64,000 nucleotides of DNA from Micromonospora terminaliae (GTDB lineage: Bacteria > Actinomycetota > Actinomycetes > Mycobacteriales > Micromonosporaceae), in contig NZ_CP045309.1 in NCBI RefSeq assembly GCF_009671205.1, forward strand, positions 2,914,001-2,978,000, given 5' to 3'. Below the pieces are notes generated by a model, which was not told the origin of the DNA, did not search any database, and worked only from the letters and a program-made list of their open reading frames with translations. Both the position numbers and the translations under genes were made by a program. Shown piece after piece: positions 4,157-64,000 of the stretch (its first letter is position 1; each line of letters starts with the position of its first letter).

Positions 4157-5211
4157 CGGAACATCACCTCGAGGCTGGTCGGAACACGCAGGGTGGGGTG
4201 TGGGTCGTAGCTCACGGGCTCGGCGCCGGGGGCGGCGGGCACCGTGGGGCGGCACCGGTCGCGCAGCACCTCGACCACCCCGGCGGCGAGGGCGAGGGCG
4301 TGCCGTTCGCCCGGGCAGCCCCGGGGACCGGCGCCGAAGGTCAACGCCCCGCCGGGCCGGCCGGGGCGGAACGCATCCGGGTCCGGATGGACGGCCGGGT
4401 CCCGGTTGGCCGCGTCGAAGCGGAGCAGCAGCACGCTCTCCGGGCCGATCTCCTGGCCGCCCAGGCGCCGCGCGCCGGTCGCGACCCGGCGGGTGGCGCG
4501 CACCGGCGGGTCCAGGCGCAGCACCTCGGCCAGCAGGTCGGCGGTGTCGAGAGTGGCCGGCGCGGCCAGCCCGTACCGGACGGCGTTGCCGATCAGCCCG
4601 GCCGTGGCATCGGCGGCCTGCACGAGCAGACCGATCCGGTTCGCGGCGGCCTCGGCCGGGGCCGGCGGCGACAGGGCGAGCAGCGCGGCCACCGCGCGGT
4701 CGGCGCGCGCCACGGCCGCCGGCTCGGCGCCCGGGTGGTAGGCCGCGGCCACCGCGGTCACCGCCGGCACGGCCGCCGCCGGGTCGGCCAGGCCGAGCCG
4801 CGCCGCCAGCACCTCCAGGGGTACGCGCCGCGCGAGCAGTGCCATCACGTCGACCCGCTGGTCGGAGCCGTGACCCGCTACGGCCGTCGGCAGGGTCACC
4901 GCGTCGAGCAGGGCGGCGGTGGATCGGGCGGTTGCCGCGCGCAGCTCGTCCGGGTCGAGGCCGGCCAACGCGGCGACCCCGATCGCCCGCCGGGCGGGGT
5001 GCCGGTCCGGCGGGCTGAACCGGCTCACGGCGCCGCGCAGCCAGGCCAGGGTGCCGTACGGTCCGCCGGGCGCGGTGGGCACCACGTACCCGGGGTCGGT
5101 CAGCACGGCGACCACGTCGGCGTGCCGGGTGATCAGCCAGCCGTCGTGGACGGGCAGCGGTGGCCCGCAGGCCGGCGTGTGCGGGGCGGGCGGGAGCGTC
5201 GGGCAGGTCAT
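4153..5211 (-). CDS. Cytochrome P450, short and atypical
   Basis: A 352-residue P450, about 50 residues shorter than the usual bacterial form. Evidence: ExxR helix as EVLR, I-helix region LVQAADATAG, and a heme-ligand loop FGAGPRGCPGERHALALAAG with the axial Cys kept and the common His two before it replaced by Arg. The shortening is N-terminal: the protein opens at DGWLITRHADVVAVL, lacking the first helices. Upstream in-frame starts exist (for example at 5310) but add arginine-rich sequence unlike P450. It is coupled by a 4-base overlap to the ICL/PEPM gene. Redox partners are not encoded here. Substrate unknown. Confidence 0.85.
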   Translation of the reverse strand: MTCPTLPPAPHTPACGPPLPVHDGWLITRHADVVAVLTDPGYVVPTAPGGPYGTLAWLRGAVSRFSPPDRHPARRAIGVAALAGLDPDELRAATARSTAALLDAVTLPTAVAGHGSDQRVDVMALLARRVPLEVLAARLGLADPAAAVPAVTAVAAAYHPGAEPAAVARADRAVAALLALSPPAPAEAAANRIGLLVQAADATAGLIGNAVRYGLAAPATLDTADLLAEVLRLDPPVRATRRVATGARRLGGQEIGPESVLLLRFDAANRDPAVHPDPDAFRPGRPGGALTFGAGPRGCPGERHALALAAGVVEVLRDRCRPTVPAAPGAEPVSYDPHPTLRVPTSLEVMFR

Positions 5212-5938: not shown

Positions 5939-8161
5939 TCAGCGGTAGAACCGCAGGTAGTCGAACTCCGCGGTCACCGCCGGGGTGGCGCCGCCGTGCG
6001 CGACCAGACCGATCCGCGGCGTCGTGTCAGCCGGGAAGGTCCAGACCGCGCCCCACGTCCAGTGCGTGCCGTCGCGGCTGGAGGCGGCTCGGAACTCGTG
6101 CTCGCCGGTGGCCCGGTCGACGTGGTGCGCCAGCCGCAGCCAGGTCGTGGTGGCCGGGGTGCCGACGATGCTGCCGCCGTAAACGGGCCGGCCGGCGAAG
6201 GGCAGCTCGTAGCCGTACTCGACCTGGCGGGTGTTCCAGATGGCCACCTGGGCGAGCCGGGCGAACCGGTCGTCGTCCACGTAGGCCACGAGGCCCGCCT
6301 GCTGGTAGTTGCGGACGACGTCCTCGCCCAGGTCGAGGGTCACCTTCGTCTCCGCGACGTAGTCGCCCGCCGGCGCGTCGCGCAGCAGGACCCCGGCGGT
6401 GTTGCCGGTGCCCACCAGGTCGGTCGACTCGACCGGCCAGCGCAGCGCCCCGCCGGTCACCGTGGCGGCCGGGTTGGGCCGGATCCACTGCCAGGCCGGG
6501 TCGAGCCCGCCGGTGAACTCGTCGGAGTACCCGGCGAGCACCGGGCCGACGCGGGGCGGCGCGACGGTGTGCCGGACCGGGCGGTACAGCGCTGCCGCGC
6601 TGACGTTGTCGAACTCCGCCGGGCCGCCGTCGGCGCGCAGCGCGAGCGGACCGGCCGCGGGCCGGGTGAGCGTCAGCGCCACCACGGCGAGCTGGTCGCC
6701 GAGGCGGGCCGGGCTCAGCTCGGCGACGAGCCGGCGGTCACGGATCTCCACGGCCAGGTTGTGCCGGTCGGTGAGGTCGAGACCGGCGGGCAGCGGCACG
6801 CTCGCCGTCGCGCCGCCACTCTCCCGGGCGGTCAGCCGGCCGCCGCCGACCGTGACGTCCACCCGGCCGAGCCGCAGCCCGGCGGTGTCCGCGCCGGCCA
6901 ACCGCAGGTCGGCTTCGGCCCGTACGTCGCCGCCGAGGCCGGCCCGGGCGGTCAGCGTGCCGGTGCCGGCCAGTACGCCGCCGGTGACCCGCCAGTGGCC
7001 CGTGCCGCCCCGCCAGCCGCCCAGGTCGGCGGTGTCGAAGCGGGCGTCGACCCGGCCGGTGGTGACCGGCGCGGGCCGGGCGTCTTCGGAGGGGCCGGCG
7101 CCGGCGTTGACGGTCGGCCAGCCGTCCACCCAGTCGAGGCGGTCCAGCAGCATGGGCCGCTCGTTGATCCCGAACGGCTCGTCCAGGTACGGGTCGGCCC
7201 GGTCGATCGCGTGGTAGGCGATCCAGTCCTGCCCGGAGAGGTCGGTGAGCACGGCGTTGTGCCCGGTGCCGATCCACCGGTTGCCGTTCTGGGTGAGCAC
7301 CGGCGTGCCGCCGGCCCGGGACACGTCCAGCCGCTGGCCGTCCCGGTCCACGAACGGACCACGCGGGTCGCGCGCCCGGCCGACCTGCACCGAGTAACCG
7401 GTGGCCGGGCCGGCGCAGCAGTTCGCCGTGGAGGCGAACAGCCAGTACCAGCCGTCGTGGCGCAGCACGTAGCCGCCCTCGAACTTGTTGTCGATGGCGA
7501 CCAGGCTCGGCGTGCCGACCGCGTGCAGCCCGTCGGGCGTGAGCTCGGTGACCGAGATGCCGCCGTAGTAGCTGCCGAAGTAGAGGTACGACCGGCCGTC
7601 GACGTCCGTGAACTGGCTCGGGTCGATGGTCCAGAGGTAGCCGCCGCCCCCGCCCGGCCGGGGTGCGACCACGGGCGAGTCGGCGAACGTCCACGGTCCG
7701 GCCGGGGTGGGCGCGGTGGCCGCCCCGATCGCGGTGTCGAAGGTGTCGCCGGAGACGGTGGTGTCGGTGACGGTCACGTACATCACCCAGCGGTCGCCGA
7801 TCCGGCGCACGTCGGGCGCCCAGAACGCGGCCCCGGGTGCGGCGAAGGACGGTCGCTGGTCGGGCGCGAAGGCGTCGCCCACGTAGGTCCAGTCGACCAG
7901 GTCGGCCGAGCGGGCGATCGGCACCCGGTGCGCCTGGCGTTCGCCCTCGCGCAGCGGGTCGGAGGTGCCGAAGGCGTACCAGAGGCCGTCGTCGCCGCGG
8001 ACGACGACGGGGTCGGCGAAGGTGTCGGCGAAGCCGGCCGAGACCGGGTTCCGGTAGCGGTCGGCTGCCGCGGCCGCCGGTGCGGCGGCCGCGGCCGTGG
8101 TCGTCGTCAGGAGCAGAGCGAGTGCGGCGGCGAGCACGCCGCCGCGGTGGAGGTGTCCCAT
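5939..8161 (-). CDS. Secreted glycoside hydrolase family 43 (arabinanase-like) with C-terminal lectin-like domains
   Basis: A 740-residue exported enzyme. Residues 1 to about 33 form a signal peptide ending in an Ala-rich stretch. The five-bladed GH43 propeller follows: ADPVVVRGDDGLWYAFG supplies the catalytic base Asp, WTIDPSQFTD the pKa-modulating Asp, and KFEGGYVL the acid Glu. GHNAVLTDLSGQDWIAYHA is typical of endo-1,5-arabinanases or related enzymes. From about residue 350 come a beta-sandwich and then a DUF1349 or xylosidase-C-terminal-like domain (SDEFTGGLDPAWQW onwards). It probably cleaves arabinan side chains of plant pectin outside the cell. An inverted repeat 49-72 bases upstream may bind a sugar-responsive repressor. 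Confidence 0.9.
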   Translation of the reverse strand: MGHLHRGGVLAAALALLLTTTTAAAAAPAAAAADRYRNPVSAGFADTFADPVVVRGDDGLWYAFGTSDPLREGERQAHRVPIARSADLVDWTYVGDAFAPDQRPSFAAPGAAFWAPDVRRIGDRWVMYVTVTDTTVSGDTFDTAIGAATAPTPAGPWTFADSPVVAPRPGGGGGYLWTIDPSQFTDVDGRSYLYFGSYYGGISVTELTPDGLHAVGTPSLVAIDNKFEGGYVLRHDGWYWLFASTANCCAGPATGYSVQVGRARDPRGPFVDRDGQRLDVSRAGGTPVLTQNGNRWIGTGHNAVLTDLSGQDWIAYHAIDRADPYLDEPFGINERPMLLDRLDWVDGWPTVNAGAGPSEDARPAPVTTGRVDARFDTADLGGWRGGTGHWRVTGGVLAGTGTLTARAGLGGDVRAEADLRLAGADTAGLRLGRVDVTVGGGRLTARESGGATASVPLPAGLDLTDRHNLAVEIRDRRLVAELSPARLGDQLAVVALTLTRPAAGPLALRADGGPAEFDNVSAAALYRPVRHTVAPPRVGPVLAGYSDEFTGGLDPAWQWIRPNPAATVTGGALRWPVESTDLVGTGNTAGVLLRDAPAGDYVAETKVTLDLGEDVVRNYQQAGLVAYVDDDRFARLAQVAIWNTRQVEYGYELPFAGRPVYGGSIVGTPATTTWLRLAHHVDRATGEHEFRAASSRDGTHWTWGAVWTFPADTTPRIGLVAHGGATPAVTAEFDYLRFYR

Positions 8162-30769: not shown

Positions 30770-32176
30770 TCAGACGTTCGCCACCAGCAGGGCGGGCTGC
30801 TCGACGCAGTCCGCCACGTGCCGCAGGAAGCCGCCGGCCACCCCGCCGTCGCAGACCCGGTGGTCGAACGTGAGGCTGAGCTGGGTCACCTTGCGCACGG
30901 CGAGCTGACCGTCGACCACCCAGGGCTTGTCCACGATCCGGCCGACGCCGAGCAGCGCCGCCTCCGGGTGGTTGATGATCGGGGTGGACCCGTCGACGCC
31001 GAACACGCCGTAGTTGTTCAGCGTGAAGGTGCCGCCGGTCAGCCGCGCCGGGGGCAGGGTGCCGGCGCGGGCGGCCGCCGTGGTCTCGGCGAGCGCGGCG
31101 GCCAGCTCCCGGGTGGTCAGCCGCTGGGCGTCGCGCAGCACCGGGACGACCAGGCCCCGGTCGGTCTGCGCGGCGATGCCCAGGTGCACCCCGGCCGACT
31201 GGACGATCCGCTGCCCCTCGGTGTCCACGTGGGCGTTGAGCTGCGGGTACCTCCGCAGGCCGCTGAGGCAGATCCGGGCCAGCAGGGCCAGGATGCTGAC
31301 CGGCGCGTCCGGGGTGGCGGCGTTGATCGCGGCCCGGGTCGCCAGCAGCCCGGTGGCGTCCACGTCCACCCAGATGGTCACCTCGGGGATCTCCCGCCGG
31401 CTGCGGGAGAGCTTGTCGGCGATGGCCTTACGGATGCCCGTGAGCGGGATGACCACGTCGCCGTCCGCGGCGGGGGCCAGCCCCACGTGCGCGGCCGGGC
31501 TGTCCGGCACGGCGGCGAGCTTCGCCGCCGGCGCGGCCGACGCGGCCTCCACGTCGGCGCGGCGGATCACCCCGCCCGGCCCGGTGCCGTGCAGCGCCGC
31601 CAGGTCGAGGCCGCGTTCCCGGGCCAGCCGCCGGACGATCGGCGAGATGACCAGCGGAGCCGTCCGGGGCCCGCCGTCCGCTCCGGTGGCCGGCGTCGCC
31701 GTCCCGGTCGGCGCCGCGTCCACCTCACCTACGGCGGGGATCGGGCCTGCCGTCGCGTCCCCGGTGCCGGCGGTGGTCTCCGGGGCCAGGGCCAGCCGGG
31801 GGCGGCGGCGCCGGCGCCCGGAGCCGCCGTGACCGGTGCCGTAGCCGATCAGGACGTTGCCCGAACCGGCCCGCTCCTCCTCGCGGTAGGTGGCGTGCGG
31901 GTCGTCGCCGCCGCCGTCGAGCGGCGCGATCGTGATGAGCGGCTGGCCCACCGGGCGGACCTCACCCGCCGCGCCGTGCAGGGCCACGACCCGGCCGGCG
32001 TACGGGCAGGGGACGTCGACCACGGCCTTGGCGGTCTCCACCTCCACGACGGTCTGGTCCACGGTGACCACGTCACCGACGGCGACGCGCCACTCGACGA
32101 TCTCCGCCTCGCTCAGCCCCTCGCCCAGGTCGGGCAGGAGGAAGTCGCGGGTTCCGGTCGCGGTGCCTTCGCTCAT
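30770..32176 (-). CDS. bkdC: Branched-chain 2-oxoacid dehydrogenase E2 (dihydrolipoyl acyltransferase)
   Basis: A 468-residue E2. Order of domains: one lipoyl domain (about 10-85) with the lipoylated Lys in VEVETAKAVVDVP; an Arg- and Ala/Thr/Pro-rich linker; a peripheral-subunit-binding domain (ISPIVRRLARERGLDLAALHGTGPGGVIRRADV); and the acyltransferase domain with the catalytic His in TFDHRVCDGG. It transfers the acyl group from E1 to CoA and forms the complex core. Its ATG overlaps the E1 beta stop by ATGA. It is the last gene of a three-gene operon. No E3 is encoded here. Confidence 0.93.
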   Translation of the reverse strand: MSEGTATGTRDFLLPDLGEGLSEAEIVEWRVAVGDVVTVDQTVVEVETAKAVVDVPCPYAGRVVALHGAAGEVRPVGQPLITIAPLDGGGDDPHATYREEERAGSGNVLIGYGTGHGGSGRRRRRPRLALAPETTAGTGDATAGPIPAVGEVDAAPTGTATPATGADGGPRTAPLVISPIVRRLARERGLDLAALHGTGPGGVIRRADVEAASAAPAAKLAAVPDSPAAHVGLAPAADGDVVIPLTGIRKAIADKLSRSRREIPEVTIWVDVDATGLLATRAAINAATPDAPVSILALLARICLSGLRRYPQLNAHVDTEGQRIVQSAGVHLGIAAQTDRGLVVPVLRDAQRLTTRELAAALAETTAAARAGTLPPARLTGGTFTLNNYGVFGVDGSTPIINHPEAALLGVGRIVDKPWVVDGQLAVRKVTQLSLTFDHRVCDGGVAGGFLRHVADCVEQPALLVANV

Positions 32177-33177: not shown

Positions 33178-34349
33178 CAGGCGTCCCCTTCCTCGTCGCG
33201 GGCGGCGGCCAGCTCGGCCCGGACCTGCTCGCGCTGCTCGACCAGTTGCGGGGTCGGCTGCGCGTAGACGTGGTCGAAGAGGCTGAGTGGGTCCACCTCG
33301 GGCTGGGCGTTCATCCGGTCGCGCAGCGCGGCGGCGTACGCCTCGGCCTCCTCGGCGATCGCCGCGACCGCGGCGTCGTCCAGCACGCCCCGGTTCCGCA
33401 GGTACGCCTCCAGCCGGGCGATCGGGTCGCGGTCCCGCCACGCCTCGACCTCCTCGGCGTCCCGGTAGCGGGTCTGGTCGTCGGCGTTGGTGTGCGGCTC
33501 CATGCGGTAGGTGTGCGCCTCGACGAGGTATGGCCCCTTGCCGGCGCGCGCGTGGGCGACGGCGCGGTTGAGCACCGCGAGCACGGCCACCGGGTCGTTG
33601 CCGTCGACCTGCTCGCTGGGCACCCCGTAGCCGACGCCCTTGTAGGCCAGGCTCGGCGCGGCGGTCTGCCGGGACAGCGGCACGCTGATCGCGTACTTGT
33701 TGTTCTGCACGAAGTAGACGACCGGCGCCTTGAACACGGCGGCGAAGTTGACGCCCTCGTGGAAGTCGCCCTCGCTGGTGGCGCCGTCGCCGATGAAGGC
33801 CAGCGCCACGGTGTCGCGCCCCTGGTAGGACTCGCCGTAGGCCAGCCCGGCGGCGTGCACGCACTGGGTGGCCAGCGGGGTGCACTGCGGCGCGGTGTGC
33901 GCGGCGGCCGGGTCGTAGCCGCAGTGCCAGTCGCCGCGGAGCAGGGTGAGCACCTCGACCGGGTCGATGCCGCGGGCGGTGAGCGCCATGGACTCCCGGT
34001 AGGTGGGGAAGACCCAGTCGGTGTCGCGCAGCGCCAGCACCCCGCCGACCTGGCAGGCCTCCTGGCCCCGCGAGGACGGGTAGACGGCGAGCCGGCCCTG
34101 CTTGGTCAGCGCGGTGGCCTGCACGTCGAAGCGACGGCCGACGACCATCCGGCGGTACATCTCGCGCAGCGCCTCGACCGGCGGCTCCGGGTAGTCGTCC
34201 CGGGCCGGCAGCGGGGTGCCGTCCGGGTTCAGCAGTCGGACCGGCTCGGTGCGCGGCAGCAGGCCGGCCGACGGGTCTGCGGCGGCCGGGGTGGCCGGCC
34301 GGCGGGTGCGCGGGGATGCCCTGCGGACCGCCTCGGGTGTGGTCGTCAC
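33177..34349 (-). CDS. bkdA: Branched-chain 2-oxoacid dehydrogenase E1 alpha
   Basis: A 390-residue TPP-dependent E1 alpha. The TPP-Mg motif is GDGATSEGDFHEGVNFAAVF ending in QNNKYA (about 195-230); HTYRMEPHTNADDQTRYR carries the regulated-loop region. It decarboxylates branched-chain 2-oxoacids from Val, Leu and Ile, feeding short-chain acyl-CoA primers for branched fatty acids and polyketides. The GTG start at 34349 follows AGGAGG by 8 bases; the first 40 residues are an unconserved Ala/Arg/Pro-rich leader. First gene of the operon. Confidence 0.92.
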   Translation of the reverse strand: MTTTPEAVRRASPRTRRPATPAAADPSAGLLPRTEPVRLLNPDGTPLPARDDYPEPPVEALREMYRRMVVGRRFDVQATALTKQGRLAVYPSSRGQEACQVGGVLALRDTDWVFPTYRESMALTARGIDPVEVLTLLRGDWHCGYDPAAAHTAPQCTPLATQCVHAAGLAYGESYQGRDTVALAFIGDGATSEGDFHEGVNFAAVFKAPVVYFVQNNKYAISVPLSRQTAAPSLAYKGVGYGVPSEQVDGNDPVAVLAVLNRAVAHARAGKGPYLVEAHTYRMEPHTNADDQTRYRDAEEVEAWRDRDPIARLEAYLRNRGVLDDAAVAAIAEEAEAYAAALRDRMNAQPEVDPLSLFDHVYAQPTPQLVEQREQVRAELAAARDEEGDA

Positions 34350-42697: not shown

Positions 42698-42760
42698 CGC
42701 TGATCAAGAGGTTTGCGTCAGCGGCAAGCGCGTTCCGAAACGCAAACCTCTTGATCAACG
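42698..42760. repeat. Intergenic inverted repeat, copy B
   Basis: The left arm 42698-42718 (CGCTGATCAAGAGGTTTGCG plus T) matches the complement of the right arm 42740-42760 at 20 of 21 positions around a 21-base loop. The core TTGATCAAGAGGTTTGCGT is shared with the copies at 57.6 and 59.3 kb. It follows copy A by 49 bases. Confidence 0.85.
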
Positions 42761-57622: not shown

Positions 57623-57684
57623 CGTCGATCAAGAGGTTTGCGTCAGGAACCGGGCTCTGGATGACGCCAACTTCTTGATCAACG
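57623..57684. repeat. Intergenic inverted repeat, copy C, supplying the TetR stop codon
   Basis: The left arm 57623-57645 matches the complement of the right arm 57662-57684 at 20 of 23 positions around a 16-base loop. The core is TTGATCAAGA(A/G)GTT. TTGATCAA contains TGA on both strands, and the TetR-type gene to the right ends at the TGA inside this arm (57681-57679). Confidence 0.85.
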
Positions 57685-58438: not shown

Positions 58439-59272
58439 ATGCAGCGGATCACGGCACCGGACGGCGCTGGAATCGTCCTGCACTCGACGGGCAGCGGCCC
58501 GGATCTCGTGGTGGTGCACGGGGGCGGGGTCACCGCCCACGAATACCGGCGGCTCGCCGCGCGGCTGGCCGACCGGTTCACCGTGCACCGCTACAACCGG
58601 AGGGGCCGGGCGGACGCGGCGCCTCGGCGCGAGCCGTACACGGTGGAGCAGGAGATCGACGACCTCGGCGCGGTGCTCGCGCACACCGGCGCCCGCCGGG
58701 CCATCGGGCACAGCTACGGCGCGTTCGTCGTGCTGCGGGCCGCGCTCCGGCTGCCGCTGGACCGGATCGCGGTCTACGACGCCCCGCTCCGCCTGGACGG
58801 GCACGGCCTGCCGACGGCGTTCCTCGACCCCGCCGAGGAGGCGGTCCGGGTGGGGAACACCGCGCGGGCGCTCGCCATCGTGGGCGCGGCCGTCAACCCG
58901 CAGTCACCGGCGTCGAAGCTGCCGCTCGGCGTGCGGACCGCGATCTGCCGGGCGTTCCTGCGCACCGAGGTGGGGCGGACCATGGGCAGCCTCGTGGGGA
59001 TGACGCTCGCCGAGTCGCGGCAGATCCAGGCGTACGAGGGACCGGCCGAGGAGTACGCAGGGATCGCCGCCGAGACGCTGCTGATCAGCGGCGCCAAGGC
59101 CGCGCCCTACTTCACCGAGATCAACGACCGCCTGGGCGCCGTCATCCCCCGGGCCCGGACCCTGCGCGTCCCGGGCAGCCCCCACAACGGGATCGCGGTG
59201 GCACCCCCCGCGCTGATCAACCCCCTCACGGCCTTCTTCACGACCCCCACGGCGCCGGCCACCCAGCGTTGA
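58439..59272 (+). CDS. Alpha/beta hydrolase
   Basis: A 277-residue alpha/beta hydrolase. The oxyanion region is VVVHGGGVTAHEY, the nucleophile lies in IGHSYGAFV (Ser), and a late His in PGSPHNGIAV completes the triad; the acid may be the Asp of EINDRLG. The TetR regulator diverges from it, which suggests inducible detoxification of an ester or an antibiotic. Its stop codon TGA is contributed by repeat copy D (59270-59272). Confidence 0.9.
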   Translation: MQRITAPDGAGIVLHSTGSGPDLVVVHGGGVTAHEYRRLAARLADRFTVHRYNRRGRADAAPRREPYTVEQEIDDLGAVLAHTGARRAIGHSYGAFVVLRAALRLPLDRIAVYDAPLRLDGHGLPTAFLDPAEEAVRVGNTARALAIVGAAVNPQSPASKLPLGVRTAICRAFLRTEVGRTMGSLVGMTLAESRQIQAYEGPAEEYAGIAAETLLISGAKAAPYFTEINDRLGAVIPRARTLRVPGSPHNGIAVAPPALINPLTAFFTTPTAPATQR

Positions 59273-59328
59273 TCAAGAGGTTCGCGTCAGGATTCCGGGC
59301 CTGCGAGACGCAAACTTCTTGATCAACG
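59267..59328. repeat. Intergenic inverted repeat, copy D, supplying the hydrolase stop codon
   Basis: The left arm 59267-59288 matches the complement of the right arm 59307-59328 at 20 of 22 positions, 18-base loop. Same core as copies B and C. The alpha/beta hydrolase gene uses the TGA in the left TTGATCAA as its stop; the ATP-grasp gene on the other strand ends 17 bases beyond the right arm. Confidence 0.85.
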
Positions 59329-59344: not shown

Positions 59345-60700
59345 TCAGTCGGTCAGGAGGATGCCGGTCATGAGGACGCCTCTCGCCAGGTTGAGGACCT
59401 CCTCGCAGCCGGGGTAGCCGACCCGGGCCAGGGCGCCGGAGCCGGTTCTGCCGAACAGGTACGGGGCGAGGCTGTACGGGACCTCGGCCGTGATGGTCTC
59501 GCCGGTCTCGATCTGCACGAAGTCCATGGCCACCCGGTCGGCCTCGTGGTAGCGCTGGAGGATGTTGCCGCCCGCGTCGACGGCGGCGCGGACACCGTCC
59601 TCCCACGCCACCGGGCTCATCTCCCGGCCGATCAGCACCCCGTGCCCGGCCGAGCCGCCGGCCGGCTTGGCGACCAGGTCCGCCTGCTCGGCCAGGGCGC
59701 GGTCGAGCTGGTCGGCGGTGAGCGCCACGGTGTGCGGGACGTACCGGCGGATCAGCGCCCGGTCGGCCTCGGGCAGCAGGTCGAGGTCGGCCCAGAGCCA
59801 GGCGTAGTTCAGCTTGTTGCTGAGCAGCCAGGCCGCGCTGCTCACGAACATCGGCAGGGTGCCGGCCGCGAGGGCGCCGGCCACCGCGTCCAGGCCGGAG
59901 CTGGAGGTGACCCGGTTGGGCACGAAGAGCCGGAACAGGGCGTCCACCGGTGCGCCGCCGACCACGAGCCGGCGCTGCTCGTCCAGCGTGGCGGTGCGGA
60001 CCGGCGCGATGACCAGGTCGATGCCGAAGCGCTTCGCCTGGTCGGCCAGCGGCGAGAGGATCCGGATGAACGTGTCCGGGTCGTCCAGGCCGGGGTATTC
60101 GGCGTCGAAGTCCATGAGCAACGCCACCCGGGCGCCGTCGGGCAGGCCGAGGGTGTCGCGGATCGCCACGAACCGCTGGTCGAGCAGGGACGGCGCGGGG
60201 CGGACCGGCAGCCCGTCGAGCAGGCCGTGCTCCCGGTACAGCTCGGCGTACCGGTAGATGACCGTGTCGGCGTCGAAGCCGCCGCCCAGGCTGCTGTCGA
60301 TGTTGTACTCCACGATGCACGGCACACCGCCGGAGAACAGCACGTCCGGCCGGTACGCGGCCAGCAGCCCCTCGTGCAGCGGCTCGTCCTCGTCGAGCAG
60401 CCGGGTCTCCCCCACCGGCACGTCGAGCAGCCGGCGCAGTTCCCCGGCGGTGCGGGCCCGCCGCCGGCAGGCCTCGAGGATGAGCTGGGCGATCCGGTCG
60501 CAGACCTCGTTCAGCTCGCGGAACGCGTCGGCCGTGAGCACCGGCGGGCGGGCCAGCCGCCACTGCTTGTTGTACGTGGCCCGGCCGTGGAAGATCTTCT
60601 CCCAGGCGCCGGCGCCGGCCGCCACCATCGCCGTACGGGTCGGCTCGGGCAGGTCGGTCCACGCCTGCCCGGCGGGCGGCCACGGGTAGTTCGGGTCCAT
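59345..60700 (-). CDS. ATP-grasp ligase-like protein (glutathionylspermidine-synthase-like)
   Basis: A 451-residue protein of ATP-grasp character. CIVEYNIDSSLGGGFDADTV resembles the preATP-grasp or N-terminal segment of glutathionylspermidine-synthase relatives; LVAKPAGGSAGHGVLIGRE (about 340-360) is an ATP-grasp phosphate loop; NILQRYHEADRVAMDFVQIETGE supplies later ATP and Mg contacts. Such enzymes join a carboxylate to an amine using ATP. It is the last gene of the coupled run beginning beyond the right edge; AAGGA lies about 9 bases before the ATG. Substrates unknown. Confidence 0.78.
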   Translation of the reverse strand: MDPNYPWPPAGQAWTDLPEPTRTAMVAAGAGAWEKIFHGRATYNKQWRLARPPVLTADAFRELNEVCDRIAQLILEACRRRARTAGELRRLLDVPVGETRLLDEDEPLHEGLLAAYRPDVLFSGGVPCIVEYNIDSSLGGGFDADTVIYRYAELYREHGLLDGLPVRPAPSLLDQRFVAIRDTLGLPDGARVALLMDFDAEYPGLDDPDTFIRILSPLADQAKRFGIDLVIAPVRTATLDEQRRLVVGGAPVDALFRLFVPNRVTSSSGLDAVAGALAAGTLPMFVSSAAWLLSNKLNYAWLWADLDLLPEADRALIRRYVPHTVALTADQLDRALAEQADLVAKPAGGSAGHGVLIGREMSPVAWEDGVRAAVDAGGNILQRYHEADRVAMDFVQIETGETITAEVPYSLAPYLFGRTGSGALARVGYPGCEEVLNLARGVLMTGILLTD

Positions 60701-60703
60701 CGT

Positions 60704-61669
60704 TCATCCGTCCTTAACGGTCAGTTGGATGGCGGCGGTGAGCTGGTCGCGGCCGGGCTGCACGGCCCGGTCCAGGGCGGGCGCGAAGGGCAGCACGGCG
60801 CCGTCCGGGCGGGTGACCCGGCGGGGCGGCGCGGCGAGCGGGACGTGCTCGACGACGGTGGCGATGATCTCCCCGGCGATCCCGCAGGACCGGTTGGAGT
60901 CGTCCACCACCACGAGGCGCCCGGTGCGGGACACCGAGTCGAGCAGCCCGTCCCAGTCGAACGGGTACAGCGTGCGCGGGTCGAACACCTCCACGGAGAC
61001 CTGGCCGGCCAGTTCCTCGGCGACGGCCAGGGCGTCGTGCACGAGGTGCCCGACGGCGACCACCGTGACGTCGGCGCCCGGGCGGCGCACCACGCCCCGT
61101 CCCAGCGGCACCGGGGCGAGGTCGGTGACGTCCGCCCGCACGTCGAGCGCCCCGGCGGGGGCGAACACCACGACCGGGTCGTCGCAGCGGATCGCCGAGA
61201 CCAGCAGCCCGTACGCGTCGGCCGGAGTGGCCGGCACCACGGTGGTCACCCCGACGTGCGCGAAGAGGCCGTACGGGTGGTCGGAGTGCTGCCCGGCCCA
61301 GCCGGTGCGGGAGCCGGAGCCGGGCACCAGGTAGGTGACCGGCACCGCGCACTGGCCGCCGGTCATCAGCGGGAACTTGTGGGCGTGGTTGACGATCTGC
61401 TCGAAGACCAGGAAGAGCAGCGAGGGGATCTGGAACTCGATCACCGGCCGCGCCCCGGCCAGCGCGGCGCCGGTGGCGAAGCTGGTGAACGCCTGCTCCG
61501 ACAGGGGCGTGTCGAGGACCCGCTCCGGGCCGAACTTCTTCAGCAGGCCGGTGGTGACACCGGCGGCGGCCACCCGGATGTCCTCGCCGAGCAGGAACAC
61601 CGACTCGTCGCGAGTCATCTCGTCGGCGAGCGCCCGGGTGAGCGCCCTGCGGTAGGAGAGCCGGGGCAT
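60704..61669 (-). CDS. Orphan TPP-dependent dehydrogenase E1 beta-like
   Basis: A 321-residue E1 beta of the acetoin/pyruvate dehydrogenase type: RALTRALADEMTRDESVFLLGEDI, LDTPLSEQAFTSFATGAALAGARPV, AGQHSDHPYGLFAHVG. It overlaps E1 alpha by one base (TGATG) and its stop is 3 bases before the ATP-grasp ATG. No E2 or E3 gene is nearby, and the bkd operon elsewhere has its own subunits, so this E1 pair may act alone, transferring an acyl group to another acceptor. Confidence 0.88.
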   Translation of the reverse strand: MPRLSYRRALTRALADEMTRDESVFLLGEDIRVAAAGVTTGLLKKFGPERVLDTPLSEQAFTSFATGAALAGARPVIEFQIPSLLFLVFEQIVNHAHKFPLMTGGQCAVPVTYLVPGSGSRTGWAGQHSDHPYGLFAHVGVTTVVPATPADAYGLLVSAIRCDDPVVVFAPAGALDVRADVTDLAPVPLGRGVVRRPGADVTVVAVGHLVHDALAVAEELAGQVSVEVFDPRTLYPFDWDGLLDSVSRTGRLVVVDDSNRSCGIAGEIIATVVEHVPLAAPPRRVTRPDGAVLPFAPALDRAVQPGRDQLTAAIQLTVKDG

Positions 61670-62640
61670 CAGCCACCTCCGGTCCGGGCGGTGAGCCCGC
61701 TGGCGTACAGGTGGTCGAGGGCGGTGGCGGGGTCGGGCGCGGGGCCGGCCAGCGCGAAGTCCACCGCCGCGGCGAGGGTGGCCTCGACCTCCGCGTCGAC
61801 CGCCGCGCGGACCTCGGCGGGCAGCCGGTCGCCCTGGATGAGCACGGGGTCCCGGCGGCGCGCCGCCGCCACCTCCTCGGGCGGGCGGTAGTCGAGGCGT
61901 ACCCGGTGTTCGAAGGTGTGGTGGGCGTCGAACCGGTAGGTGCGGGCCTCGACCAGTTCGGGGCCGCCGCCGGCGCGCATCCGCGCGACGGCGGCGGCGG
62001 TGACCGCGCGTACCTGCTCGGGGTCCTGGCCGTCGACGGCGGTCGCCGGCATGCCGAAGGCGGCGGCGCGGCCGGCGATGGTGCCGGCCACCGCGCCCTC
62101 GACCGGCATGGTGGTGGCGTAGCCGTTGTTCTCGCAGACGAACAGCACCGGCACCCGCCAGAGCGCGGCCAGGTTGAACGCTTCGAGGAGCATCCCCTCG
62201 TTGACCGCGCCGTCGCCGAAGAAGGTCGCCCCCACCACGTCGTCGCCGCGCCGCCGGCGCGCCCACACCGCTCCGGTGAGGATCGCGCCGGCGGCCCCGA
62301 CGATGGCGTTGGCGCCGAGCACCCCGACGCCGAGGTCGGCGGCGTGCATCGACCCGCCCCGGCCGCGGTTGAGCCCGGTGACCCGGCCGCACAGCTCGGC
62401 GAGCATCCGGGCCGGGTCGGCGCCCTTGGCGAGCACGTGCCCGTGCCCGCGGTGGGTGCCGGTCACCAGGTCCCCGGGGCCCAGCGCCGCGCAGACGCCG
62501 GCGGCGACGCCCTCCTGGCCGAGGTACGGGTGGATGCCGCCGACGATCTCACCGGCGTCGACCAGCTCGATGGCCCGCTCCTCGAAGCGGCGGATGAGCC
62601 GGACCGTCCGGTAGAGGCCGGCCGGGTCGGGACCGGTCAC
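61669..62640 (-). CDS. Orphan TPP-dependent dehydrogenase E1 alpha-like
   Basis: A 323-residue E1 alpha. The TPP-Mg motif runs [21 protein letters not shown] to CENNGYA (about 145-175); [17 protein letters not shown] and [13 protein letters not shown] are typical of the acetoin-dehydrogenase-like class. With E1 beta it decarboxylates a 2-oxoacid and carries the acyl unit on TPP. GTG start overlaps the DUF3050 gene's stop by GTGA. Unlike bkdA it has no N-terminal extension. Confidence 0.9.
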
Positions 62641-63434
62641 GCCGGGCGGCCCTCCTTGATCGCGGCCAGGATGTCGTCCCAGAGCCGCGCGCGGGCGGCG
62701 AGGGCGGCGTTGACCGTGTCGGCGCACTCCTGCCATTTCCCGTCGTCGTCGCCGCACAGGTCGGCGAGCATCTGCATGGCCATGGGCGTGTGCTGCTCGC
62801 CGTCGACCTCGATGTGCCGCTCCAGGTAGTCGACGAACGTGTTGAGCCGGTTGCTGCGCTCGTTGACCGCCACGACCTGGGTGAACATCTCCGGGATGAG
62901 GTCCTCCCGGCCGAACGCGAAGGCGGCCGCCTGGCAGTGCACCGGGGTGCTCTCGATGATCCGCCAGGTGGTGGCGGCGAACGCGGCCGAGGGCGCGGGC
63001 ACGCCCGCCTCGGCCAGCGCCGCGGTGACCGGGCGGCCGGCGCGCAGCAGGTCGACCAGCCGGTCCACGGCCCCGGTGTCGGCCCCAGCCTCCCGCATGC
63101 CCCGCACGTACAGCTCGAAGTGGCTGATGTAGCCGTCGCCCAGCTCGTCGCTCTCCTCGACCATGACGATGTCGTTGATGAGGCGGCGGCTGCCGGTCGG
63201 GCCGGTGGGGATCCACGGGACGGCCACGCAGGTGAGCTGGCGCTGCAACGACTTCAGCAGCGACATGAAGTCCCACACCGCGAAGACGTGGTGCTCCATG
63301 AACGTGACCAGCGCCTCGTGGGTGTCCAGGTTGGCGTAGAGCGGGTGCTTGACCACCACGTCGCGGCGGTCGGTCACGGCCCGCTCCAGCCGCTCGATGC
63401 CCGGGTGGGTCCTCCCCCAGTCGTACCGTGACAT
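62637..63434 (-). CDS. DUF3050-family protein (heme-oxygenase-like fold)
   Basis: A 265-residue helical protein that matches what I recall of DUF3050: [51 protein letters not shown] and [18 protein letters not shown]. The fold is related to heme oxygenase and to heme-oxygenase-like diiron oxidases. Candidate metal ligands are the Glu and His of MEHH, the His and Glu of SHFELY, and Glu, Asp and His of HIEVDGEQH. No reaction is established for the family to my knowledge. It is coupled to E1 alpha and starts 1 base after the dioxygenase stop. Confidence 0.85.
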
Positions 63435-63435
63435 G

Positions 63436-64000
63436 TCAGCCTCCCTGCGGGGCGCGGTCGCGCCAGATGACCGGGCAGAAGTCGGGGTCGGCGTAGTCCG
63501 GCCGGCCCTCGGGGGTGCGGCGGACCAGCACGTCGTGGTTGTACGCGGCGAGCGTGCCGTCGGAGAGCGGATACTCCCGCCAGGCGTTGGCGCCGTCCTG
63601 CAGGTGCAGCGAGACGGCCTGCCGGGGGCGGCCGCTGACGTTCGGGCCGCTGCCGTGGTAGACGCGGCAGTGGTGGAAGCTCATGTGCCCCTTGGGGATC
63701 ACCATGGGCACCTTGCGGATCTCCGCCCGGTTGTGCGCGGCGTTCTCGGCGAGCATCGCCTCCAGCTGGTCGCGGTCCCGGTCGGCGAAGTGCCGGACCA
63801 CGGTGTCGTCGGCGCCGACCTCCCGCCAGCGGTGCGAGCCGTCGACGATGGTGATCGTGCCCATCTCCTCGCCGCAGTCGTGGAACGGGATGAACGCGGT
63901 GAGCATGTTCTCCGAGGAGGAGGACGCCCAGTAGTGCTTGTCGAAGTGCCAGGGCACGATGTTGGACGGCTCGCCGGAGATCGGCGGCTTGTAGATGAGG
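63436..64000 (-). CDS. Phytanoyl-CoA dioxygenase (PhyH)-family protein, N-terminus beyond window
   Basis: The visible 187 residues form the C-terminal part of a PhyH-type Fe(II)/2-oxoglutarate oxygenase. WHFDKHYW gives the HxD iron ligands; [25 protein letters not shown] holds the distal His and the Arg that binds 2-oxoglutarate. [24 protein letters not shown] is the usual strand pair after HxD. The frame continues through base 64000, so the start is not seen. It is the first visible gene of a coupled operon with DUF3050, E1 alpha/beta and ATP-grasp genes and probably hydroxylates a pathway intermediate. Confidence 0.88.

Follow-up and report, generated by a model that had tools for sequence, protein, structure and literature searches.

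In the highly reducing type II polyketide synthases (PKSs) for avenalumic acid (ava) and p-coumaric acid (cma), A1 is reported to load an aromatic acid, 3-amino-4-hydroxybenzoic acid (3,4-AHBA), on an acyl carrier protein (ACP), and ketosynthase (KS)/chain length factor (CLF) proteins then extend it (PMC10777205). In the pgl operon of pristinamycin, which supplies phenylglycine, an E1 pair within the biosynthetic gene cluster (BGC), PglB/PglC, converts phenylpyruvate to phenylacetyl-CoA, which is then oxidised by PglA, called a dioxygenase in the text and a dehydrogenase in the table of that report (PMC7089894). Here we analysed a stretch of 64,000 nucleotides of the Micromonospora terminaliae chromosome (contig NZ_CP045309.1, positions 2,914,001 to 2,978,000; hereafter the window), which ends in five coupled genes for an ATP-grasp ligase, the beta and alpha subunits of a thiamine diphosphate (ThDP)-dependent E1, a DUF3050 protein and a PhyH oxygenase. 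We tentatively propose that these genes close a conserved, ava/cma-like aryl-polyketide cassette and serve in supply and tailoring, with the aroyl unit coming from PhyH, E1 and HmaS, a hydroxymandelate-synthase-like enzyme encoded just upstream. Judged by sequence, the gene machinery is that of an ava/cma-kind type II PKS cassette with novel supply genes, and its probable role is to make a type II polyketide building block from a tyrosine-derived acid.

When the same chromosome was read to the right of position 64000, the PhyH gene was completed and the five genes proved to be the tail of a longer coupled operon, which continues to an ACP gene and contains no E2 gene. The operon runs ACP, ACP-like, KS2, KS-like, LigA (an AvaA6-like ANL enzyme), KS1, HmaS, PhyH, DUF3050, E1alpha, E1beta, ATP-grasp, with LigB upstream on the same strand. 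The initial annotation had taken the five genes for a whole pathway; instead, they are the last part of a type II PKS-type cassette, whose other members are two ACP-like and three KS-family proteins, two AMP-forming enzymes and an HmaS-like enzyme. The A1-A2-A3-A4-A5-A6 order of ava/cma corresponds to LigB-ACP-ACP-KS2-KSlike-LigA here (PMC10777205), with LigB presumed to act as a ligase; in both, an acyl-ACP ligase comes first, then two ACPs, a KS, a CLF-like partner and an AvaA6-type ANL enzyme. Unlike in ava/cma, 3,4-AHBA synthase, AvaA7, a ketoreductase and a nitrite-forming gene were not seen among the operon proteins scanned, and no genome-wide search was made for 3,4-AHBA synthases or nitrite-forming genes; the cassette has HmaS, PhyH, DUF3050 and E1alpha/beta instead, along with an additional KS1 and, in some loci, ATP-grasp. 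Because HmaS, PhyH, DUF3050 and E1 occupy this place in an operon without an AHBA gene, starter supply from 4-hydroxyphenylpyruvate is the simplest reading.

Other described systems share parts of the cassette. KS-like and KS2 resemble AmcG and AmcF of the KS-CYF type II PKSs amc/cfa for cispentacin and coronafacic acid (PMC10698177), but both matches are far under the cut-offs, and the supply genes here are aromatic whereas a 2-oxoglutarate route operates there. AmcG was the sole NCBIfam match of the KS-like protein (E 1.5e-8, 34.5 of 80 bits), and KS2 reached 156 of 325 bits with AmcF, general FabF models scoring higher. The pgl operon, likened here by description rather than by sequence, has in common an E1alpha/beta pair in a biosynthetic operon and an oxidising enzyme; in contrast to pgl, HmaS is present and no counterpart of PglD (thioesterase) or PglE (aminotransferase) was found among the operon proteins. 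The hydroxyphenylglycine route (HmaS, Hmo and an aminotransferase; PMC7089894) shares the HmaS-like first enzyme, but neither an Hmo-like nor an aminotransferase gene was found among the operon proteins, and PhyH with E1 is proposed instead. An orphan E1 pair in a BGC has a precedent in PglB/PglC. No described cluster with the full gene set was found in the literature searched, as judged from titles and the starts of abstracts, in agreement with the initial annotation.

All five window genes are open on the minus strand, as first annotated: the ATP-grasp ligase (59345..60700), E1beta (60704..61669, Transket_pyr and Transketolase_C domains), E1alpha (61669..62640, E1_dh 213 bits), both of the ThDP 2-oxo acid dehydrogenase type, DUF3050 (62637..63434), and the C-terminal part of the PhyH Fe(II)/2-oxoglutarate oxygenase (63436..64000, 71.6 bits to PhyH for this part). 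PhyH crosses the window edge, and the complete gene lies at 64359-63436 in numbering extended past the window, which is also used below. Moving from PhyH to ATP-grasp, the first junction is a 1-base gap, the next two are overlaps of 4 bases and of 1 base (E1alpha/E1beta), and the last is a 3-base gap, so that the proposed coupling, with gaps or overlaps of 1-4 bases, was borne out. Upstream, HmaS (an HmaS/HPPD-like gene, 65462-64356) overlaps PhyH by 4 bases and follows KS1 (66793-65528) after 65 bases, the largest gap between ACP and ATP-grasp. LigA (68406-66790), the KS-like protein of 198 aa (68999-68403), KS2 (70186-68996), the ACP-like protein sm81 (81 residues, 70424-70179) and ACP (70687-70424) complete the operon; from KS1 through ACP, neighbouring genes overlap by 1 to 8 bases. 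LigB lies at 72716-71319. Pfam or NCBIfam matches underlie the names KS, ligase, ACP and HmaS; sm81 had no match in either, and its ACP nature was assigned by inspection.

The sequence motifs are consistent with the proposed supply enzymes. The best solved relative of HmaS is 2r5v (312 bits), compared with 244 bits for 1t47, a 4-hydroxyphenylpyruvate dioxygenase (HPPD). The Fe ligands H164, H244 and E323 are present in 70/70 aligned sequences, and the diagnostic position is Ile in 69 of them and Val in one; HPPDs presumably carry Phe there. A separate HPPD-like gene in the same genome is 40% identical to HmaS. In PhyH, the HxD...H motif and its Arg (H138, D140, H235, R246) were found in 72/72 aligned sequences, and DUF3050 has a heme-oxygenase-like diiron fold with six near-invariant metal ligands, which supports both the diiron site anticipated for it and the view of the two proteins as metal-dependent and oxygenase-type. 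The closest solved relative of DUF3050, itself a relative of HamA and MgoB, bears the name HamA; the main text of PMC8154892 does not mention DUF3050. E1alpha has the ThDP motif (GDG in 70/70 and E-N-N in 68-70/70 aligned sequences), and E1beta has E58 and H128 in 70/70. The pair did not reach the NCBIfam equivalog cut-offs for pyruvate dehydrogenase E1. None of the four E2 genes in the genome is in the operon; the nearest (window 30782-31459) is about 28 kb from the cassette and adjoins another E1alpha (33258-34160), so the E1 pair indeed has no neighbouring E2 (E3 was not searched for). The ATP-grasp protein has the glutathione-synthetase/glutathionylspermidine-synthetase fold, that of amide ligases, and is accessory to the conserved core.

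Conservation across genomes was examined in 72 cassette loci (65 distinct PhyH sequences), defined by a cluster-type PhyH of at least 60% identity; in one of them (L155) PhyH is only a 36-residue remnant. A scan of the named genomes gave 80 loci. HmaS was found in 71/72 cassette loci, that is, in every locus with a full-length PhyH, and DUF3050 in 71/72 (all but L137), a count that is biased upward because nearly all loci were located via DUF3050. E1alpha and E1beta were present in 70/72 initial stretches and in 72/72 with adjoining stretches (L025, L082); an optional E1, suggested by its apparent lack in these two loci, was accordingly rejected. The remaining counts were KS2 70, KS1 67, KS-like 67, LigA 65, LigB 64 and ATP-grasp 46, and several of the misses reflect short contigs or stretch ends. 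KS1 and LigA of L025 and LigA of L082 were recovered in adjoining L158 and L157, while KS1 of L082 was not found even with the adjoining stretch included. On the other hand, in the stretches fetched around 50 further DUF3050 loci, no match to HmaS, E1, KS2, KS-like or LigB passed the thresholds.

The genera with the gene set include Micromonospora, Salinispora, Kribbella, Actinophytocola, Catellatospora, Dactylosporangium, Phytohabitans, Kitasatospora and Streptomyces, together with a Catenulispora metagenome-assembled genome (MAG). PhyH, DUF3050 and E1 are thus linked across genera, as a joint pathway of the five families would predict, but ATP-grasp does not follow them: it was not found in 26/72 loci and, among the 72, occurs only in Micromonospora/Salinispora and Kribbella. 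ATP-grasp homologues elsewhere include those of Solwaraspora, Nocardiopsis and a Jatrophihabitantaceae MAG. Among 61 Micromonospora genomes sampled, DUF3050 (at least 87% identity) was found in 36, HmaS (at least 71%) in 36 and either in 37; the window DUF3050 is 97% identical to a Micromonospora chersina protein. The full order from ATP-grasp to LigB was kept in 17/17 Micromonospora loci around a cluster-type DUF3050. Nine LigA-family matches lay outside known cassettes; of six neighbourhoods fetched, one was a cassette without DUF3050 (L159) and five were other contexts (L160-L164).

From gene content, order, conservation, motifs and folds we infer every substrate and reaction of the following scheme. 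HmaS would convert 4-hydroxyphenylpyruvate to 4-hydroxymandelate, which PhyH would oxidise, most simply to 4-hydroxyphenylglyoxylate, the step of Hmo in hydroxyphenylglycine pathways. E1alpha/beta would then decarboxylate 4-hydroxyphenylglyoxylate with ThDP, and the aroyl group would either be handed to an acceptor (CoA, a carrier protein or a borrowed E2) or leave as aldehyde or acid; PglB/PglC are the precedent for a BGC-encoded E1 pair with an aromatic 2-oxo acid as substrate (PMC7089894). LigB would load or reload the aromatic acid on one of the two ACPs, and KS2/KS-like, together with KS1 and LigA, would extend the aryl unit as in ava/cma. DUF3050 may perform a later diiron oxidation. Finally, ATP-grasp would join the acid to an amine in Micromonospora and Kribbella; loci of some other genera have a stand-alone condensation-type enzyme or an O-methyltransferase in its place. 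Stand-alone condensation-domain proteins (Pfam) were seen in four loci without ATP-grasp (L044 16725-18134, L029 17914-19302, L093 14389-15726 and L076 15777-17336), and they are a possible alternative route for joining the acyl unit to its partner. A bolder extension, which we regard as improbable though worth stating, is that E1alpha/beta, without a lipoyl E2, passes the aroyl group of the aryl-glyoxylate made by HmaS and PhyH directly to ACP, or acts as a carboligase with an acyl-ACP; this would be new starter chemistry for type II PKSs, found in at least eight named actinobacterial genera.

Several observations weigh against the proposed route. The next solved relatives of HmaS, 7yvv (292 bits) and 3zgj (252 bits), have HPPD as their deposited name yet carry Ile, and the Ile diagnostic is therefore not exclusive by deposited name. 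Solved relatives of PhyH are weak, the best being SnoK at 39 bits. LigA scored 494 bits with the AvaA6 diazotase model NF058622, below its curated cut-off of 975. In KS2, Asn replaces the first His of FabF-type KSs in 66/66 sequences, which makes it uncertain which KS condenses, and neither a ketoreductase nor a dehydratase was found among the operon proteins scanned. Since none of 296 class-level genomes was above the AvaA6 cut-off, no true AvaA6 cluster was at hand for direct comparison, and the ava/cma synteny rests on the published gene table rather than on sequences. LigB implies a free acid, so that E1 as a thioester maker is less certain. In addition, HmaS is deleted from one genome (G002, L155, about 4214-4346) and PhyH is cut down to its last 36 residues, yet DUF3050, E1 and ATP-grasp remain; E1 outlives HmaS there, which weighs against a strict HmaS-E1 bond.

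That same genome, with E1 but no HmaS, would fit a different use of E1: alongside HmaS, E1 would turn 4-hydroxyphenylpyruvate straight into a 4-hydroxyphenylacetyl thioester, which would then be oxidised by PhyH and DUF3050. PglB/PglC, which make phenylacetyl-CoA from phenylpyruvate before oxidation by PglA (PMC7089894), are its model. We consider this unlikely: HmaS would compete for the same substrate, yet it is kept in 71/71 loci with a full-length PhyH, and a PglD-like thioesterase or PglE-like aminotransferase was not among the operon proteins. Less likely again is an N-N bonded product, with LigA as an ATP-dependent diazotase and DUF3050 as a nitrogen oxygenase. The resemblance of LigA to NF058622 and to the solved structure 8ztz (407 bits) suggests it, as does the name HamA, from which the fragin/valdiazen identity of the DUF3050 relative was taken; HamA is listed as a putative N-N enzyme in a review (PMC11705231), and 72 of 134 ava-related clusters are reported to have no nitrite genes of their own (PMC10777205). 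Yet LigA is under the model's cut-off, neither an aminotransferase nor an amine-making gene turned up among the operon proteins, and HamA is reported to be non-essential for hydroxylamine intermediates towards valdiazen (PMC11659414). As for the five genes alone being a complete pathway, their tight coupling speaks for it, but the operon continues upstream, ATP-grasp was not found in 26/72 loci, and two genomes, G022 and G405, retain the rest of the set but have no DUF3050; contradicted by the conserved context, that view is hardly tenable. Its broader part, synthesis of a small molecule, is supported.

Natural variants bear on the order of steps in the route from HmaS through PhyH and E1. In G022 (L137), DUF3050 has been deleted in frame at the PhyH-E1alpha junction with its last residues kept; HmaS, PhyH, E1alpha/beta and ATP-grasp are still open (96-97% identity), and the genome has no other DUF3050. 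In G405, found by the AvaA6 model, L159 has HmaS, PhyH and KS/ACP/ligase genes, E1alpha/beta lie 8.6 kb off (L165), and no DUF3050 match was obtained genome-wide. These two genomes, which retain HmaS, PhyH and E1 but no DUF3050, would fit a side or later step for DUF3050. In G053 (L138, about 7020-7330) the sole cassette remnant is an E1beta fragment beside CLF, a deletion scar indicating that the cassette was once present there and then lost.

Further upstream of LigB, a SARP-like regulator stands ahead of a second coupled operon (81143-73426) encoding SchA/CurD-like, carboxyltransferase, biotin carboxyl carrier, biotin carboxylase, ACP-aromatase/cyclase fusion, cupin, KSalpha and CLF proteins, which we take to be a whiE-like spore pigment type II PKS. 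Phosphopantetheinyl transferase-like and GNAT-like genes lie near LigB on the opposite strand. The GNAT, SchA/CurD, acetyl-CoA-carboxylase, cupin, SARP and KSalpha/CLF names were assigned by inspection. We infer a link between the two operons only as far as that the aryl unit may serve as starter or side chain of the whiE-like PKS. The cassette and KSalpha were on one contig in 31/37 Micromonospora genomes, always within about 21 kb, and on different contigs in six; KSalpha was inside the fetched stretch in 16/17 Micromonospora cassette loci and about 5 kb beyond it in the other (L015). That the two operons are nevertheless independent pathways lying side by side in Micromonospora is compatible with the proposed supply route and nearly as easy to accept as to doubt. 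The cassette is an optional neighbour of the whiE-type operon in Micromonospora, where KSalpha (at least 85% identity) occurs in 59/61 genomes against 37/61 for the cassette, and elsewhere it occurs without it: not one of the 31 cassette loci outside Micromonospora (from 27 genomes, four of them fetched twice) had a KSalpha of at least 60%, with most stretches ending near LigB. Where roughly 33 to 60 kb around the cassette was read, in seven genomes, that stretch contained no KSalpha; one, G068, has its KSalpha 311 kb from the cassette, and four of four Kribbella genomes tested had none at E 1e-80. Against independence stands the proximity in 31/31 one-contig genomes, for which a single ancestral insertion accounts just as well as a possible functional coupling does.

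Among the 24 Micromonospora genomes without a cassette, 17 KSalpha neighbourhoods were fetched; 16 had no cassette gene, and the other was L138 with its E1beta fragment. An E1 pair with 32-40% identity lies 7-13 kb from CLF in nine of the 17 (L141, L144-L150, L153). It was considered as a replacement E1 cassette and rejected, since in the two inspected (L141 and L148) an Lrp-like regulator before the pair and a third long gene after it give the appearance of a branched-chain dehydrogenase operon of ordinary type.

The 12-gene set, conserved across several actinobacterial families and with its product undescribed in the literature searched, represents a large unexplored pathway. If our proposal is true, it would be a new way to feed a tyrosine-derived aromatic unit into a type II PKS, and it may bear on the pigment-type PKS of 59/61 Micromonospora genomes. 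It would also provide a pathway context for actinobacterial DUF3050 proteins, and natural knock-outs exist in the form of genomes from which DUF3050, HmaS or the entire cassette has gone.

DUF3050 occurs in other settings as well. In L100, L108-L113 and L115-L123 it lies near a pair of AMP-forming enzymes with weak similarity to LigA/LigB (26-30%), with PabAB-like and FAD monooxygenase-like genes also seen by inspection in L110 and L112; by gene content these loci, from Streptomyces, Parafrankia and Actinoplanes, appear to be a further type of DUF3050 cluster, likewise uncharacterised. In L087, L092, L095, L097 and L098 (Actinoallomurus, Rhodococcus rhodnii, Kibdelosporangium, Streptomyces and Amycolatopsis), DUF3050 lies near aromatic type II PKS genes: KSalpha in L087, L095 and L098, SchA/CurD-like or aromatase-like genes in L092 and L097, and FAD hydroxylase-like genes by inspection.

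A promoter scan gave no sigma-70-like site, such a scan being uninformative for this genus. At the 3' side of the operon, between convergent genes, a palindrome without strand assignment (59269..59326) folds at -37.1 kcal/mol (z -6.1) and is a putative terminator-like hairpin. Three palindromes in the window (42700-42758, 57625-57682 and 59269-59326) share the unit GACGCAAACTTCTTGATCAA, whose half-site has six matches in the window at up to 3 mismatches, with 0 expected from shuffling. A palindrome resembling this type is also found at the deletion scar of L138.

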